IMG/VR virus record: IMGVR_UViG_3300044630_005233
Location: 1-23,786 of that record
Strand: one strand, 5' to 3'
Length of the DNA stretch: 23,786 nt
Origin: a virus
Shown: positions 2,048-23,614 of the stretch, piece after piece
Numbering within the stretch: position 1 is the stretch's first letter
How the letters are laid out: each line of letters starts with the position of its first letter
Program-made: the position numbers and the translations under genes
The notes under the pieces: generated by a model
The model's input: the letters and a program-made list of their open reading frames with translations, nothing else
What the model was told of the DNA's origin: nothing
Database searches by the model: none

Positions 2048-2632
2048 CTACTTCACGATCCAGAGGGCTCCCGCCGCGATCGGCGTCGGCTGCGACAACT
2101 GCACGTACACCTCGTTATTCCGGCCGGCTGGGCCAGCGGGGCCGGTCGCTCCGGCGGCTCCCGCGACGCCCTGCTCGCCCTGGATACCTTGCAAGCCCTG
2201 GTCGCCCTTCGGGCCAGCGGGGCCGGCTGCGCCCTGGATACCCTGCGGGCCTTGAATCGATCCACCGCTCACCCACTGCGATGTCGCGGCATCGTAGACC
2301 CAGAACGAATCGTCGGCCTGCACGATGTACGAATCGCCCTGGGTGGCACCGGCGGGGAGATCGCCCTGCGTCGCCACCTCGCCCTTGAACGTGATCCCCA
2401 GGCCAGACGGGCCTTGAATACCCTGCTGGCCTTGCGGGCCGGCGTCACCCTTCGGGCCGGCGGGGCCAGCCTCGCCGGCGACGCCTTGAATACCCTGCGG
2501 GCCGGCTGGGCCTGCGGCCCCCTCTGCGCCCGCGGGGCCGGCGGGGCCGATCGGGCCGGCGTCGCCCTGCGGGCCACGAATCGAAACCCATGCGGTGCCG
2601 TCGAATACGAGAACGTCCTGCGTTTCAGCCAT
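2048..2632 (-). CDS. Collagen-like short tail fibre protein (194 aa)
   Basis: The protein opens with [18 protein letters not shown], then long Gly-X-Y tracts ([16 protein letters not shown]...). These are broken by a module of about 55 residues ([20 protein letters not shown], then [16 protein letters not shown]) and followed by more Gly-X-Y repeats. It ends in a short beta-like tail. Collagen-like triple helices are a known trimeric shaft in phage fibres. The ATG has AAGGAG upstream and overlaps the previous gene's end by eight bases. It probably assembles with the neighbouring fibre proteins. Which one binds the receptor cannot be told from sequence. Confidence 0.8.
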
Positions 2633-2951
2633 TGCTCTTTCTCCTTCTCAGGGTGGGAAACTTGTTCGGCCTCCACGCAGCGGCGGCGCCGATCTTCTTC
2701 ACGGGAACAGACGACGCAACGACGCCGGTGTTTTTTCTTGTGGCGCGGAGAGCCGCCGAGGCGAGCCATACGTCGCCCTTCGCGGCCGCGGGCGGCTGCT
2801 CGAGCTGCGGGCCGTAGACCTCGACCGAATGGCCGTCCGATCCGGCTGGCCCTTGCGGGCCGACAGGGCCGATGCTGCCGCCGCTGCCGCCGCCACCGTA
2901 GGCGATCTGCTGCCAGGTCGTGCCGTCCCAGAAATACAACAGGTTCGCCAC
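2625..2951 (-). CDS. Short collagen-like fibre protein, GTG start (108 aa)
   Basis: Starts at GTG with GAGGT nearby. It begins with [13 protein letters not shown], a Gly/Ser linker, and a short Gly-X-Y tract ([16 protein letters not shown]). It then carries only the front half of the module found in the other collagen-like fibres (SVEVYGP...[11 protein letters not shown]). The rest is a basic tail with KNTGVVASS and LRRRKSNG, unlike the other copies. It may be a worn or recombined relic of a longer fibre, or a small working adaptor. The intact reading frame and tight spacing to both neighbours argue that it is expressed. Confidence 0.6.
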
Positions 2952-2954
2952 GGC

Positions 2955-5645
2955 CTACCTCTTACGCTTCTTGCTTGCGTCGGTCTGCACTTGCGCCTTC
3001 ATCGCCGCCACCTCTGCCCGCAGCGATCGGATCTCCGCGATCGCCTCATCGAGCAACGCCTTCGGGGCGAAATTGCCATCCACGTAATCCTTGCGGGTGA
3101 GATGGCCCGCGGCCGTTGGAGCGGCTGCGGTGCTCTCCACGTTGGCCGATACCGACACGACATTCGATACGTTCGTGATCGTTGGCCCCGCCGAGCCGAA
3201 CCGAATCGCGGCTCCCGATGCCCGCACCTCGAGCAGCACCACCGCCGCGACGCTCGCGGTCGTTGCCAGAAGTAGGTTCGTCGTGCCTGTCCGAATCGCG
3301 ACGCCACCGCTTGAACCAAGTAGGTTGTAGGTGCCGGCCCAGGTCATCGTGTTGACCGCAGTCGGGGCCACGACCGTGCCTGTCATCGTGCCGCCGGTCA
3401 GTTTCAAAAATGCCGTGCTGCCCGCAATGGCACCATCCACGTACTTCTTGTTCGCGAGGTCGTTATCTACGGCAGGCGTGAACGGGGTCTGTGGGTTCGC
3501 CCCGAGAAACTGCACCTGTGCAGTGTCGGGGGCAGCAACGAAAGCCTGCTTCCCGCCTGGCATATACAGCCGGTAATACGCCCCGTCGTAATAGGTGTAA
3601 ACGTCGGTGCCGTTGAAGCCGGCGGGGCCGGCGTTTGCCGCGTACCGCAACGGGCCGTTCATTACGTCGCCCGCTTTGTTGACGTAGTTCCCCGCGAGCG
3701 TGGCCGCGCAGACGCCGTTGCTGTCGATGGTCAGGCCGTTGCCGATCTTGATGCCGCCAAGTGTTCCCGCGCTGGCCGTTGGCAGGGTGTAGTTGCCGGT
3801 GCCGCCGCTGACGCTGATCGTCCCGTCCGCAGTCACAGCGATGCCGCTGCCAGCCTTTACGCCTCCGAGGGTGGTCGCGGTGGCCGCGGGCAGCGTGTAG
3901 GTGCTCGACTTCGAATCGACATACTGCTTCGTCGCGGCCTCGAGCGGCTGCGTGGGATCGCCTGGCAGAGTCAGCGGGCTCCCCGCCACCACCTCGCCAG
4001 CCTTCACGGTGAGATAGTTGCTGTCGGATACCACCGAAACATTCGTCCCGTCGGAGCCGATCCAAGCGTTTTCGCACTTGATCGCCGGCTCGCCGGCCGG
4101 CACGTTGATGGTGCCGCTCATCGTGCCGCCGGCCAGAGGCAGGAAGCCGGTCGGCACCGTCGCCACCCTCGCGTCGACGTACTGCTTCGTCGCAGCCTGC
4201 AAGGCGGTGGTGGGGTCGGCTGGAAGCGCGATCGGCTTGAATGCGTCGATCGAGTTCAAGCCGAACGCGAGCAGATTCGTCGTGCCGCTTCGCACCGTCA
4301 CGCCCGCGGTCGAGCCCATGAAACAGAAGTTCGATGCGGTCTGAATGAAGTTGATCCCGTTCGGCACGTTGATCGTGCCGGTCATCGTGCCGCCGGCGAG
4401 GGGAAGGTAGGCCGTGCCGCTCGCGCTCACGCTGATCGTGCCGTCTGCCGTGACTGCGATTCCACTGCCGATCTTCACGCCGCCCAGTACGGTCGCGGTC
4501 GCGGGCGTGAGCGTCTTTGCGGCGGGCGTGAAAACGAAGCCGTCGCTGCCCAGGGTGGAGGCGTTCCCCGCGTCGGCCGATACGGCAGACGGGCCGGCTG
4601 GGCCTGGTATTCCCTGCGCTCCCTGGATTCCCTGCGGGCCTTCGGGGCCGCGCTCGCCCTGCTCACCGGCTGGGCCGGCGACGCCTGCCGGCCCTTCGGG
4701 GCCGCGGATCGGGCCGACGTTGATCCACGCCAGGCCGTCCCATACGAAGCCGTCGCCTTCGGCCGTGCCGGCTGGAAACGACGCATCGACCGGCGGGCCG
4801 TCGGGATCATGCACGAGCCATAGGTCGCCATCGACCGGCGCGGCGTCCTGCGGCGGGTACGTTGAGATCGAGCCGCGGAGCCGAACGCCCGCGCCCTGCG
4901 CTCCTGTCTCGCCCGCGGGGCCGCTGGGGCCGGCTGGCCCTGGTATTCCCTGGTCGCCCTGGATGCCTTGCTCGCCTTGAACGCCCTGGATGCCTTGCTC
5001 GCCCTGCGGGCCAGCGGGGCCGGCGATCCCGTCCGCACCGGCTGGGCCAGGCTCACCAGCCGCACCAGGCTCACCGCGTGGAATCTTGAAGGCCAGCAAC
5101 GCGCTGCTGGTGGTGCCGACGTTCACCACCTCCGCAGGCAGGCCGGCGTCGATGGTGGTCGTGGAATCAACGTCGATGGTGGCCGCTTCGCCGGCGGGGC
5201 CTTGCGGGCCTTCGGGGCCAGGCGGGCCGGCGGGAAGTTCGACCTCCGGCGCGTTCGTCCAAACCCACAAGTCGCCAACGTGATCCGCGGGCGGGGGCGT
5301 GGTGTCCGAAACTACGTGCGTGCAGTCGATGCTCTCGCCTGGTGGCCCTTGGATCGGGCCGGTGTCCACCCACTGCTCGCCGTCCCATACCGCACCGTCG
5401 CCAGGAGCGAAGCCTTCGGGCGTCCCTTCCGGCGGCGGGCTGGGGATCACCCACAAGTCGCCGTCGCTCGGGGCGTTGGCCGGTGGCCACGTTTCCGCGG
5501 TGCCTTTGATCTGGATGCCGGCACCAGGCGGGCCGGCTGGCCCCGATGGGCCTCCCCAGATCGTGACTTCGATCCGCTGCGCCGTCTCTCTCGCGTCGAT
5601 CGGCGGGAGCGGTTCGCCTTTTGCCATCGGTGTTTTGCTGCTCAT
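2955..5645 (-). CDS. Large collagen-like tail fibre protein (896 aa)
   Basis: The start [12 protein letters not shown] is chosen because its ATG overlaps the BppU-like gene's stop as ATGA. Roughly the first 375 residues alternate Gly-X-Y collagen tracts with two copies of a 60-residue module (GAGIQIKG...GDLWVI...[14 protein letters not shown] and GAGVRLRG...GDLWLV...[14 protein letters not shown]). The rest carries tail-fibre repeats: [20 protein letters not shown] and related copies, [15 protein letters not shown], and four KQYVD/KKYVD/KDYVD blocks. The C-terminus is a coiled coil (about 865-890, [20 protein letters not shown]) and a basic tail, which would hold a trimer together. It follows the baseplate gene and is the likely main fibre. 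Confidence 0.88.
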
Positions 5646-6001
5646 GCGGCAACGTCCTCGAGAACGTCCAACACTCCACGCAGGATCGTCTCGGTAACGC
5701 CTTCGGGCCGCGTCCACTTCAACCGCCAGCGATACGAGCCCGCTTCGAGCTTCACGGTGTCGGCCTCCTGCATCGAAAGAGCAAACAGCCCATTCGCGGC
5801 GTCGATCACCGTCACGTTGAACGCGGCCACTTGTTCGAACGTCCGAAACAGCATCACCGGCGCGGTGATCTCGAAGCCCTCGACCGACAGCGGCTCATTG
5901 AGATCGCGAAGGCTCACGCGCACCTGGCGATTGAACTCATCGCCGCGCACAAGTCGAATCGAGAGGGGAGCCGCGCCGCTGTCGATGGTGTATGCAGGCA
6001 T
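5642..6001 (-). CDS. BppU-like baseplate / fibre-adaptor protein (119 aa)
   Basis: The product resembles the N-terminal domain of lactococcal phage baseplate upper protein BppU and the small adaptor proteins before phage fibres. A basic-acidic [19 protein letters not shown] strand pair is followed by [11 protein letters not shown], and later [20 protein letters not shown], then [12 protein letters not shown]. That is the usual order: RGD-type opening, conversion to a target, limit term, then the returned value. The domain normally joins the baseplate to fibres, which fits its place just before the large fibre gene and its ATGA overlap with it. The upstream Shine-Dalgarno is weak. Confidence 0.65.
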
Positions 6002-7120: not shown

Positions 7121-8221
7121 TTAGAAGGGCGTTTCCCGCTCCGCGGGTGATTTACCGTTTTCGGGAGAACGAGCCCGCAGGGACGCAGCCAGGCCCGCCA
7201 CCGTTGAATCCGTGACCCGCGACCGCTTCCAGGCCTCGTACTGGGCCGCGGTCATGTTCTCCATCGCGTCAGACCGCCACCAGGCCCGCTTCCGGTCGCG
7301 CTCCTGGATTTCGTCCACCGTGAGCCGCGCGGGATTGCCGCCGCCCTGGGGCCGGTTCGACGGGACGCTGCCGCCCCGATCCTGGGAGCGGGTGAGCCAC
7401 TTCGTGACGAACGCCCGCCAGAGCGACTTGCGGGCCTTCGCCGGATTCGCCTTGAGCCATTCGCCCATGCGGGCCAGTTCTCCCGCTACGTCCACCGCTG
7501 GGTAGGCCGCGGCCCAGGCCTTGCGGTCTGCGTCCTCGATGCCTTCCCACCCAGCCGCAGGCGACCACCGAATCGAGTCGGCCGGCCGCGACCGACGCCG
7601 CTTCGGCGTTTCGGTCGTGGCAACAAAACACGAAGTGTTTTGTATTTCTTCCTGGGTAGGGGAAGGGGAAGGGGAAGGGGGGCATCCATTTCGCATATGC
7701 GATCGCATATGCGATTGGCTATGCGAATCGCATCCATCTTGCGTTTCGCCCGCGATTGGCGCGTTTCCGTCTTTTGCGCATCCGTCTTTCGAATCTGCCG
7801 CTGCCGATGGCGACTGCGGCGACGATGCGCCCTGGCAATCGTTTTGCATGGCGGTTCGCATATGCGATCGCATATGCGATCGCATATGCGATTGGCTATG
7901 CGAATCGGATGCGCCAGACCACCGTGCGGCCGCTGCCGCCTTGCCAGCCGCAGACCTCGAATCCCGATAGGCCCGCTCCTTTTCGAGCCGCGGGTTACGC
8001 CGCTTGCCGTCCTCGCCCACGGGAAACTTCCCTTCGAGTTCGGCCCACTCCGCGGCCACTCCTGGGCTGATCGCTTCCAGCCGCTTCGGGTCTGCGGGGA
8101 GACTGCCCTGCTCCCACTGGACGCAGAGCAGCGTTATGTAGTGGCCTCGCGTCGCAGCCGGCCATCCGATCGTGGCTGCGAGGAAATCGCGAGGAAAGAA
8201 ATCGAACTGCGGAGCCGCCAT
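7121..8221 (-). CDS. DUF1376 replication protein with origin inside its gene (366 aa)
   Basis: The ATG at 8221 has GGGAGG upstream and overlaps the zinc-ribbon stop. Residues 1-60 are a DUF1376 (YdaU-type) domain: FFPRDFLAATIGWPAATRGH, then YITLLCVQWEQGSLPADPKR. This domain occurs in phage replication-initiation proteins in the position of lambda O. Residues about 105-200 are low-complexity, with SHSQ and repeated SHMR units and a PSPSPSP run encoded by DNA repeats. The C-terminal part (W.GIEDADRKAWAAAYPAVD, then KSLWRAFVTKWLTRSQD) resembles the helicase-loader-contacting ends of such proteins. Initiator function is inferred from domain, repeats and neighbours. No helicase gene is in view. 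Confidence 0.8.
   Translation of the reverse strand: MAAPQFDFFPRDFLAATIGWPAATRGHYITLLCVQWEQGSLPADPKRLEAISPGVAAEWAELEGKFPVGEDGKRRNPRLEKERAYRDSRSAAGKAAAAARWSGASDSHSQSHMRSHMRSHMRTAMQNDCQGASSPQSPSAAADSKDGCAKDGNAPIAGETQDGCDSHSQSHMRSHMRNGCPPSPSPSPTQEEIQNTSCFVATTETPKRRRSRPADSIRWSPAAGWEGIEDADRKAWAAAYPAVDVAGELARMGEWLKANPAKARKSLWRAFVTKWLTRSQDRGGSVPSNRPQGGGNPARLTVDEIQERDRKRAWWRSDAMENMTAAQYEAWKRSRVTDSTVAGLAASLRARSPENGKSPAERETPF
7623..7643. repeat. AT-rich inverted repeat next to the iterons
   Basis: ACAAAACAC and GTGTTTTGT form a perfect 9-bp stem around GAA. The patch is far richer in A and T than its surroundings. It could be the easily melted element of the origin, or a protein-binding site. Confidence 0.6.
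7659..7682 (+). other. G-quadruplex-forming motif
   Basis: The plus strand has four runs of at least four G separated by AA, the canonical pattern for an intramolecular G-quadruplex. On the coding strand it encodes a Pro-Ser repeat. It sits between the AT-rich repeat and iteron array A. Confidence 0.65.
7691..7726. repeat. Iteron array A: 2 perfect + 1 degenerate palindrome
   Basis: Two tandem copies of the perfect palindrome TCGCATATGCGA are followed by a variant, TTGGCTATGCGA, with no spacer. The period is 12 bases, so each copy adds the same four residues (SHMR) and leaves the reading frame intact. Each junction makes a GCGATCGC sequence containing GATC. Confidence 0.9.
7856..7903. repeat. 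Iteron array B: 3 perfect + 1 degenerate palindrome
   Basis: Three tandem TCGCATATGCGA copies are followed by the same TTGGCTATGCGA variant and the same continuing ATCG as in array A, but with one more perfect copy. The shared flank shows the two arrays arose by duplication. They are about 130 bases apart. Confidence 0.9.
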
Positions 8222-10099: not shown

Positions 10100-10301
10100 C
10101 GTTCACCTCCGTGCGGGGCTGGGTAAGGAACGCCTGCACGATGCCCGCCTCGTGCTGACGTTGTTTCTCTGTTGACCAGTGCGAAGCCAGGTAGCCGCAG
10201 CCCACCGCGACGCGCACGGCCTCAAACAGCGTCCAATCCCGCTCCGCTGCCAGGGCCGTGATTCGGTGCGCCCTGGCCTCGTTGCCCGTGTCATCGTTCA
10301 C
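10089..10301 (-). CDS. Hypothetical protein before bet (70 aa)
   Basis: A GTG start overlapping the CsrA-like gene's stop (GTGA) gives a 70-residue product: NDDTGNEARAHRITALAAER, then DWTLFEAVRVAVGCGYLAS. Its end overlaps the bet start by 11 bases. No family is recognised. It looks like a single helical domain. The support is the overlap pattern at both ends and the ordinary phage-like composition. Without a homologue search the confidence stays moderate. Confidence 0.6.
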   Translation of the reverse strand: MNDDTGNEARAHRITALAAERDWTLFEAVRVAVGCGYLASHWSTEKQRQHEAGIVQAFLTQPRTEVNDER

Positions 10302-10495
10302 GGCTGCGGCCTCCTGGGTTCGAGCCGCCGCTGCACCGCCTTCGCCCGCAGGATCGGGATCGACTTCGGGGCCGTGATTCGGATTCGAATGGAGCCGTCG
10401 TGCCGACGCGTCCACGAAACCGCGATCGTCTCCCCGATGTAGACCTCCTCGCCGTCTCTGGTCGTGACCGACAAGGTGCCGTATTCGTTGCTCAT
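10298..10495 (-). CDS. csrA: CsrA-like RNA-binding translational regulator (65 aa)
   Basis: CsrA dimers bind GGA motifs in mRNA leaders and block or stabilise translation. The sequence aligns along the whole CsrA fold: LSVTTRDGEEVYIG matches LILTRRVGETLMIG of E. coli CsrA, IRIRITAPKSIPILR matches VRIGVNAPKEVSVHR, and a helix with QRRLE follows. The RNA-contacting arginine after the APK strand is kept. An extra five residues precede the first strand and the C-terminal tail is basic. ATGA overlap with the upstream gene fixes the start. A leader hairpin 460 bases upstream has the shape of a CsrA target, so feedback control of this operon is possible. Confidence 0.85.
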   Translation of the reverse strand: MSNEYGTLSVTTRDGEEVYIGETIAVSWTRRHDGSIRIRITAPKSIPILRAKAVQRRLEPRRPQP

Positions 10496-11036: not shown

Positions 11037-11052
11037 CAGATAACTGCAAAAC
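11037..11052 (+). repeat. CAG-N4-CTG operator-like repeat, copy 2
   Basis: CAGATAACTGCAAAAC differs from copy 1 in four positions but keeps the CAG/CTG dyad and the A-tract. It lies between the excisionase-like gene and the terminator, in a stretch with several TTGCAG hexamers. Confidence 0.45.
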
Positions 11053-11099
11053 ACTGCAAGCATTTTTTTAGATGCTGCAAGAGGCCCGCGAAAACGCGG

Positions 11100-23140: not shown

Positions 23141-23614
23141 TCAGTTGAAAACCTGCGTCCAGTAAGGGCGACCGTTTGCCGAATAGGCCAGACCGACGCC
23201 GATGGCCGAAGTGCTGGGGGCGAGGATGTTCTTCCGGTGGCCGGATGAATTCATCCAAGTCCGCACGACTTCCTGCGGCGACTGCTGGCCATACGCGACG
23301 TTCTCGCGGTAGCCCATTCGCGAATGGTACATGCGACCCCGCGAGGCTTGAACCTCTGACCACTGCCGCGCATCGACCATGAGCCGGTCGCTGGCCGCGA
23401 GTGGCCGCAGACCTCGGCGGGCGCGCTCTGCGTTGACCAGCCGCACGACCTCATGCTCCTGGTTATTGCCGACAACCCGACGCACGACCGGCACGCGCTC
23501 GAGGATGGGCGGCGAGGCCTGGCAGGCGGCCGGCTTGAGAACCGCCGCGGCTGGCGAAATGGAAAGCAGCGAATACGTCACCAGCACGACCGCAACCGTC
23601 GATTTCCCTTTCAT
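23141..23614 (-). CDS. Exported CAP/SCP-domain protein (157 aa)
   Basis: The start overlaps the preceding stop as ATGA. Signal peptide: KGKSTVAVVLVTYSLLSISP, then AAA. From about residue 55 it is a CAP (SCP/PR-1) domain: VVRLVNAERARRGLRPLAAS, MYHSRMGYRENVAYG, VVRTWMNSSGHRKNILAPST and AIGVGLAYSANGRPYWTQVF. The H, E and H positions of the CAP cavity are kept. Bacterial CAP proteins are extracellular, with unclear activity. In a phage late operon this is unusual; it might aid lysis or modify the host surface. Confidence 0.88.
   Translation of the reverse strand: MKGKSTVAVVLVTYSLLSISPAAAVLKPAACQASPPILERVPVVRRVVGNNQEHEVVRLVNAERARRGLRPLAASDRLMVDARQWSEVQASRGRMYHSRMGYRENVAYGQQSPQEVVRTWMNSSGHRKNILAPSTSAIGVGLAYSANGRPYWTQVFN

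Follow-up and report, generated by a model that had tools for sequence, protein, structure and literature searches.

The window analysed here, the whole 23,786 bp stretch of a linear IMG/VR virus fragment, carries on its minus strand a gene of the DUF1376 type (8221–7121; 366 aa). Around this gene lie genes for RusA, a PDDEXK nuclease, RecT, a CsrA-like protein, an excisionase-like helix-turn-helix (HTH) protein and an integrase, and the capsid and tail genes are found farther from it. From this gene content, the fragment probably derives from a temperate tailed phage. Scanning of the window ORFs revealed no helicase and no helicase loader, P-like or other, that could be recognised. The CsrA-like protein is a phage-encoded regulator (10298–10495, minus strand; Pfam 5.6e-10). 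Three collagen-like, G-P-rich open frames occupy 2048–5717 (minus strand), and a protein with a CAP (cysteine-rich secretory) domain, possibly a host or phage cargo gene, is encoded at the record end (23141–23614, minus strand). DUF1376 was found in 4 of 294 genomes of Planctomycetota, and a genome scan for relatives returned only three MAGs, two of them planctomycete; with the domain rare in that group and MAG relatives few, a planctomycete host is only suggested.

The N-terminal domain of the gene product (aa 1–105; 7907–8221, minus strand) is the proposed iteron-binding part. When the 366 aa window protein was searched against Pfam, no family was matched, PF07120 (DUF1376) falling below threshold, whereas 50 of 52 aligned N-terminal sequences did match PF07120. 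The PHROG match of the window protein is phrog_9327, 'primosomal protein' (2.5e-7). Close relatives are 48–70% identical to the window, and in alignment with DUF1376 proteins (A5) the RD, GW, RGHY and KFP positions are invariant or nearly so; as judged from this alignment, the domain is conserved and shared with DUF1376 proteins. The AlphaFold2 model of the domain (pLDDT 86.6) comprises four helices, a small strand pair and a long helix, and reads as winged-helix-like. A Foldseek search of the PDB returned nothing significant, with winged-helix proteins among the weak matches, and the winged-helix reading therefore refers to predicted secondary structure only. The C-terminal domain (7124–7642, minus strand), common to L004, L005 and L021–L080, has a confident helical core in the predicted structure and would, by proposal, recruit a helicase or its loader. 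None of 35 members of this domain had a Pfam match, and a fold search against the PDB gave no match. Comparison of a sequence profile with PDB chains gave nothing significant.

The linker between the two domains contains TCGCATATGCGA, the 12-mer that occurs most often in the window, in five exact copies (7691, 7703, 7856, 7868 and 7880), and no further match with up to two mismatches occurs in the 23,786 bp. Two degenerate units, TTGGCTATGCGA (TCGCATAGCCAA on the coding strand; 7715–7726 and 7892–7903), differ from it at three positions and extend both arrays in register with the 12-bp period. The first array (7856–7903, minus strand) thus consists of three perfect copies and one degenerate unit, and the second (7691–7726, minus strand) of two perfect copies and one degenerate unit, separated by a spacer at 7727–7855 (minus strand). 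All perfect copies share one frame of the minus-strand gene, in which they read SHMR. Since 43-nt segments of the arrays are near-copies (7691–7733 versus 7868–7910; 98% identity), one array probably arose by duplication of the other; the presence of two arrays may raise local initiator loading or may reflect a recent duplication. Two separate arrays per linker, of the GATGCTCCAAGCA type, were also seen in L130 and L138, and the iteron of cyanophage L178 is nearly identical to that type.

Adjoining the second array, between the arrays and an inverted repeat, is a tandem repeat (7654–7682, minus strand) that reads (TTCCCC)n, polypyrimidine, on the coding strand and (GGGGAA)n, polypurine, on the other, and which was absent from the initial annotation. 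It is followed by a hairpin (7623–7643, minus strand) whose arms, 7623–7631 and 7635–7643, form a perfect 9-bp stem (ACAAAACAC-GAA-GTGTTTTGT) with a loop of 3 nt that reads TTC on the coding strand. The order towards the 3' end of the gene is therefore arrays, (TTCCCC)n tract, hairpin. A candidate unwinding element at 7621–7650 (minus strand) has the lowest GC content of any 30-mer in the window (30%), tied with one at 11040. The latter (11040–11070) is the only other 30-mer equally AT-rich, and adjoins the excisionase-like HTH gene. The initial annotation had described five perfect copies and two degenerate units in two arrays, in phase with the reading frame as SHMR, beside an AT-rich inverted repeat; exact positions and frame bear out this description of the arrays, and the tied lowest-GC 30-mer contains the inverted repeat. 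The window thus holds the features of an in-gene origin: tandem iterons in mid-gene, an adjacent AT- or purine-rich element and an inverted repeat past the tract. Cumulative GC skew, which the same annotation had put forward as a check, was flat at the linker, with no switch; in a linear fragment such as this it was uninformative, and it lent no support.

Because an IMG/VR scan for the exact double iteron gave no further record, relatives were sought through the protein domains: the C-terminal domain yielded 61 loci (C-set) and the N-terminal domain 80 (N-set). In N-set linkers, repeated 8-mers take up 77 of 180 nt, versus 15 in control windows. Ranked by repetition within the respective locus, the linker came in the top 5% for 43 of 57 genes of the N-set and for 32 of 48 of the C-set; the window linker beside the C-domain outranks all 765 of its own control windows. 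The order of elements in relatives is the N-domain, iterons 11–12 bp apart, a homopurine/homopyrimidine tandem repeat, mostly a hairpin, and the C-domain. A search for repeats in the linkers of homologues had been suggested earlier, and its outcome was favourable in that most have iterons and the tract, mostly with the hairpin, but part of one C-domain group (L052, L063, L065 and L070) shows little linker repetition.

The hairpin stems of relatives pair perfectly over 6–11 bp and comprise at least 10 different sequences, for example ACATCC/GGATGT, ACCGGC/GCCGGT, GATTTCTCC/GGAGAAATC, GTCTTCTGC/GCAGAAGAC and ACAAAACAC/GTGTTTTGT, so that the stem sequence varies while pairing and position are kept. 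A planctomycete MAG has GAAGAACAC-TTC-GTGTTCTTC at the hairpin position, and most of the C-domain group L029–L066 have no clear hairpin. As each hairpin was the best stem found by a search of the region, single cases may be due to chance and it is the recurrence that counts as evidence. Three distant DUF1376 phages (L083, L179 and L182) carry a near-identical hairpin, TTCACTTCGTTCAGAA, past the tract, with CTTCG in its loop as in the window; this hairpin may serve as a conserved signal for single-strand loading.

Taken together, these sequence comparisons indicate that the linker is very probably a theta-type phage replication origin of the lambda-type, in-gene kind, and that the DUF1376 product is the initiator that binds its iterons. 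The N-terminal domain would bind the ~12-bp iterons, with a core at each helical turn and on roughly one helix face; on loading of several protomers, the adjacent tract and AT-rich hairpin would be strained and melted. The C-terminal domain would then recruit the host replicative helicase or its loader. The iterons might instead form an operator through which the DUF1376 protein or another regulator controls its own operon, with no origin function. Palindromic sites together with a domain predicted to be winged-helix-like would be in keeping with a repressor, and initiators often autoregulate, but the sites lie in mid-coding sequence, away from a promoter, and are followed by a melting-type tract and a hairpin in the order known from lambda. 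DUF1376 genes moreover stand beside replication genes, a helicase loader or DnaB gene adjoining the DUF1376 gene in several phages, and we regard an operator without origin function as distinctly unlikely. The sites may still serve autoregulation as an operator.

The distribution of the 8-bp core GCATATGC also speaks for a DUF1376 initiator. Within the N-domain subclade of the window, 19 of the 24 genes have the core in their linker (39 copies). It is absent from all 38 other DUF1376 relatives and from all 46 genes that combine the window's C-domain with another N-domain; in 122.6 kb of other sequence from the same loci there is one copy. Sister IMG/VR phages (L089–L123) share with the window the N-domain subclade, the GCATATGC iteron and the 12-bp period, but differ in the C-terminal domain, in having a single array and in reading frame. 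Because the core is confined to the subclade and the frame differs in the sisters, the repeat goes with the N-terminal domain. In a tree of that domain, whose deep forks are weak (103 columns, 60 rows), the palindrome-bearing sequences need one change (support 92/86), and the window lies inside, beside L087 and L088. These two closest relatives (~70%) have no palindrome, and GATGGCAAACCG stands in its place.

The C-domain of the window, by contrast, groups with genes such as L005, L021 and L023, in which N-domains and iterons differ. Other iterons among C-domain relatives are GTTACGCGTAAC, present three times in L005, GGAACGC on both strands in L004, and TGTCCGG in L024. Since its C-domain kin have other N-domains and other iterons, the window gene looks like a natural chimera whose iterons arrived with the N-domain. 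L021 and L024 also have, close to their homologous gene, large open frames with scores for tail fibre proteins. The same linkage bears on a further reading, in which the arrays are some other cis-acting phage site, namely a partition site, a packaging signal or a recombination site. Arrays of short palindromes do occur at such sites, and RecT and RusA genes are near, but the arrays are linked to the N-domain that their own gene encodes, relatives stand beside helicase-loading genes and the order of elements is that of ori lambda; we therefore hold such a site to be highly unlikely.

The same comparison separates a DNA element from a repeat at the peptide level. The window 12-mer recurs in sister phages with the same N-domain, with 0–2 mismatches and a 12-bp period, but is read there in another frame, as DRICD, ERICE or DGICE in place of SHMR. 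The in-frame position of the window copies is thus not significant in itself, as the sisters carry the repeat in a different frame. An 11-bp repeat in L031, CGCATAGCAAA, passes through all three frames. Across relatives, GCAWA reaches 23.3 per kb in 62 linkers versus 1.3 per kb in the remainder of the same genes, with 80, 77 and 51 occurrences in the three frames, and neighbouring GCAWW motifs are spaced 11 bp apart 87 times and 12 bp apart 41 times, about one helical turn. As frames vary, GCAWA is enriched in all of them and GCAWW spacing is 11 or 12 bp, the linker repeat behaves as a DNA element, and these comparative sequence data favour DNA sites over a peptide repeat. Palindromy is a trait of one subclade; what DUF1376 relatives have more commonly is a GCAWA/GCAWW core that recurs at intervals of 11 or 12 bp.

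It could be argued from the single SHMR frame of the window copies, and from arrays that resemble a duplication, that the gene has a flexible SHMR-type linker and that its DNA became repetitive as a side effect of slippage or of selection on the protein. This explanation was rejected on the change of frame in relatives and is extremely improbable, given that the same 12-mer encodes DRICD or ERICE in sisters, that the L031 array runs through all three frames and that copies in L004 lie on both strands. A selfish palindromic element or CRISPR-like array inserted into the gene, for which a 'CRISPR spacer' annotation in one relative's linker might speak, is scarcely credible and was rejected on the confinement of the motif to one position, as the motif is nearly absent outside the linker (the one copy in 122.6 kb) and each N-domain clade has its own motif at a constant position. 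The annotation in question stands inside the DUF1376 linker of Vibrio phage 1.183.O (MG592549; L184 2855–2884), where the repeats of the linker were probably misread as a CRISPR array.

Beyond the window, we lean towards a broader reading of the in-gene origin, which is suggested by the pattern of sequences across relatives: that the DUF1376 family consists of phage initiators with the origin in their linker, that a cassette of N-domain and iterons has been swapped among unrelated C-domains, that tract and hairpin form a conserved loading element, and that oriJ of the Rac prophage lies in ydaU. In the literature searched, only five papers mention DUF1376, and none was found that connects it with 'initiator'; a lambda-type in-gene origin is a known kind, and DUF1376 initiators with N-domain-linked iterons appear undescribed in that literature. 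If the reading is correct, a widespread domain of unknown function, DUF1376, would gain a function and a mechanism, and phage origins could be found from sequence by the rule of linker repeats (11–12 bp in the window's relatives), tract and hairpin. The natural swaps of N-domain and iterons would also allow initiator specificity to be studied, and the E. coli Rac prophage would have a concrete candidate site for its origin.

The N-terminal part of lambda O binds DNA and its C-terminal part contacts the helicase loader. The lambda origin lies in gene O (J02459 39034–39190) and, like the window, has in-gene iterons with inverted symmetry, a purine-rich AT tract and an inverted repeat: iterons ATCCCTCAAAACGAGGGA in three reading frames are followed by ACAAAAGAAAAAAGAAAAG and then by GTCAGAGAATTC...GAATCCTCTGAC. 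The lambda-O-like in-gene origin proposed in the initial annotation is thereby supported by sequence, the order of iterons, tract and inverted repeat being that of lambda. The two differ in that lambda iterons are 18–19 bp long at 20–24 bp (12 bp at a 12-bp period in the window), that the lambda tract is purine-rich AT and the window tract GC-rich, and that lambda has the P-like loader for which no counterpart was recognised in the window ORFs scanned. The window protein has no O-family Pfam match, and so seems to work like O without being a recognisable sequence relative. O binds the 19-bp lambda iterons, which have the form of imperfect inverted repeats, and unwinding requires the AT tract (PMC7466680). 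A self-complementary iteron is therefore not new in kind.

A similar arrangement is described for SPP1, in which gp38 binds oriL repeats inside gene 38 (PMC6316719); direct repeats and an AT-rich DUE lie within its own gene, and loader and helicase genes follow (PMC6316719). Among DUF1376 genes of annotated phages and of E. coli K-12 Rac (n = 16), linker repeats were in the top 5% of the locus in 12, and the full or partial order of elements was present in lambda O, Rac ydaU and most of these 16 diverse genes. The annotation 'DNA replication protein O' has already been given to one ydaU homologue, so a replication role had been guessed by annotators before. In the Rac prophage, the DUF1376 gene ydaU (L165 3620–4477) is followed by the ATPase gene ydaV. 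In the ydaU linker, both strands carry repeats of the TGTTCAAACA type, and an AT/purine stretch and a GC hairpin are also present. Rac ydaU thus shares with the window the DUF1376 domain, linker repeats, tract and hairpin, and differs in its iteron. The function of ydaUVW has been described as undetermined (PMC11014345), and the prophage has an active origin, oriJ (PMC3945230), for which we propose, from the arrangement of these elements, the ydaU linker as the candidate position.
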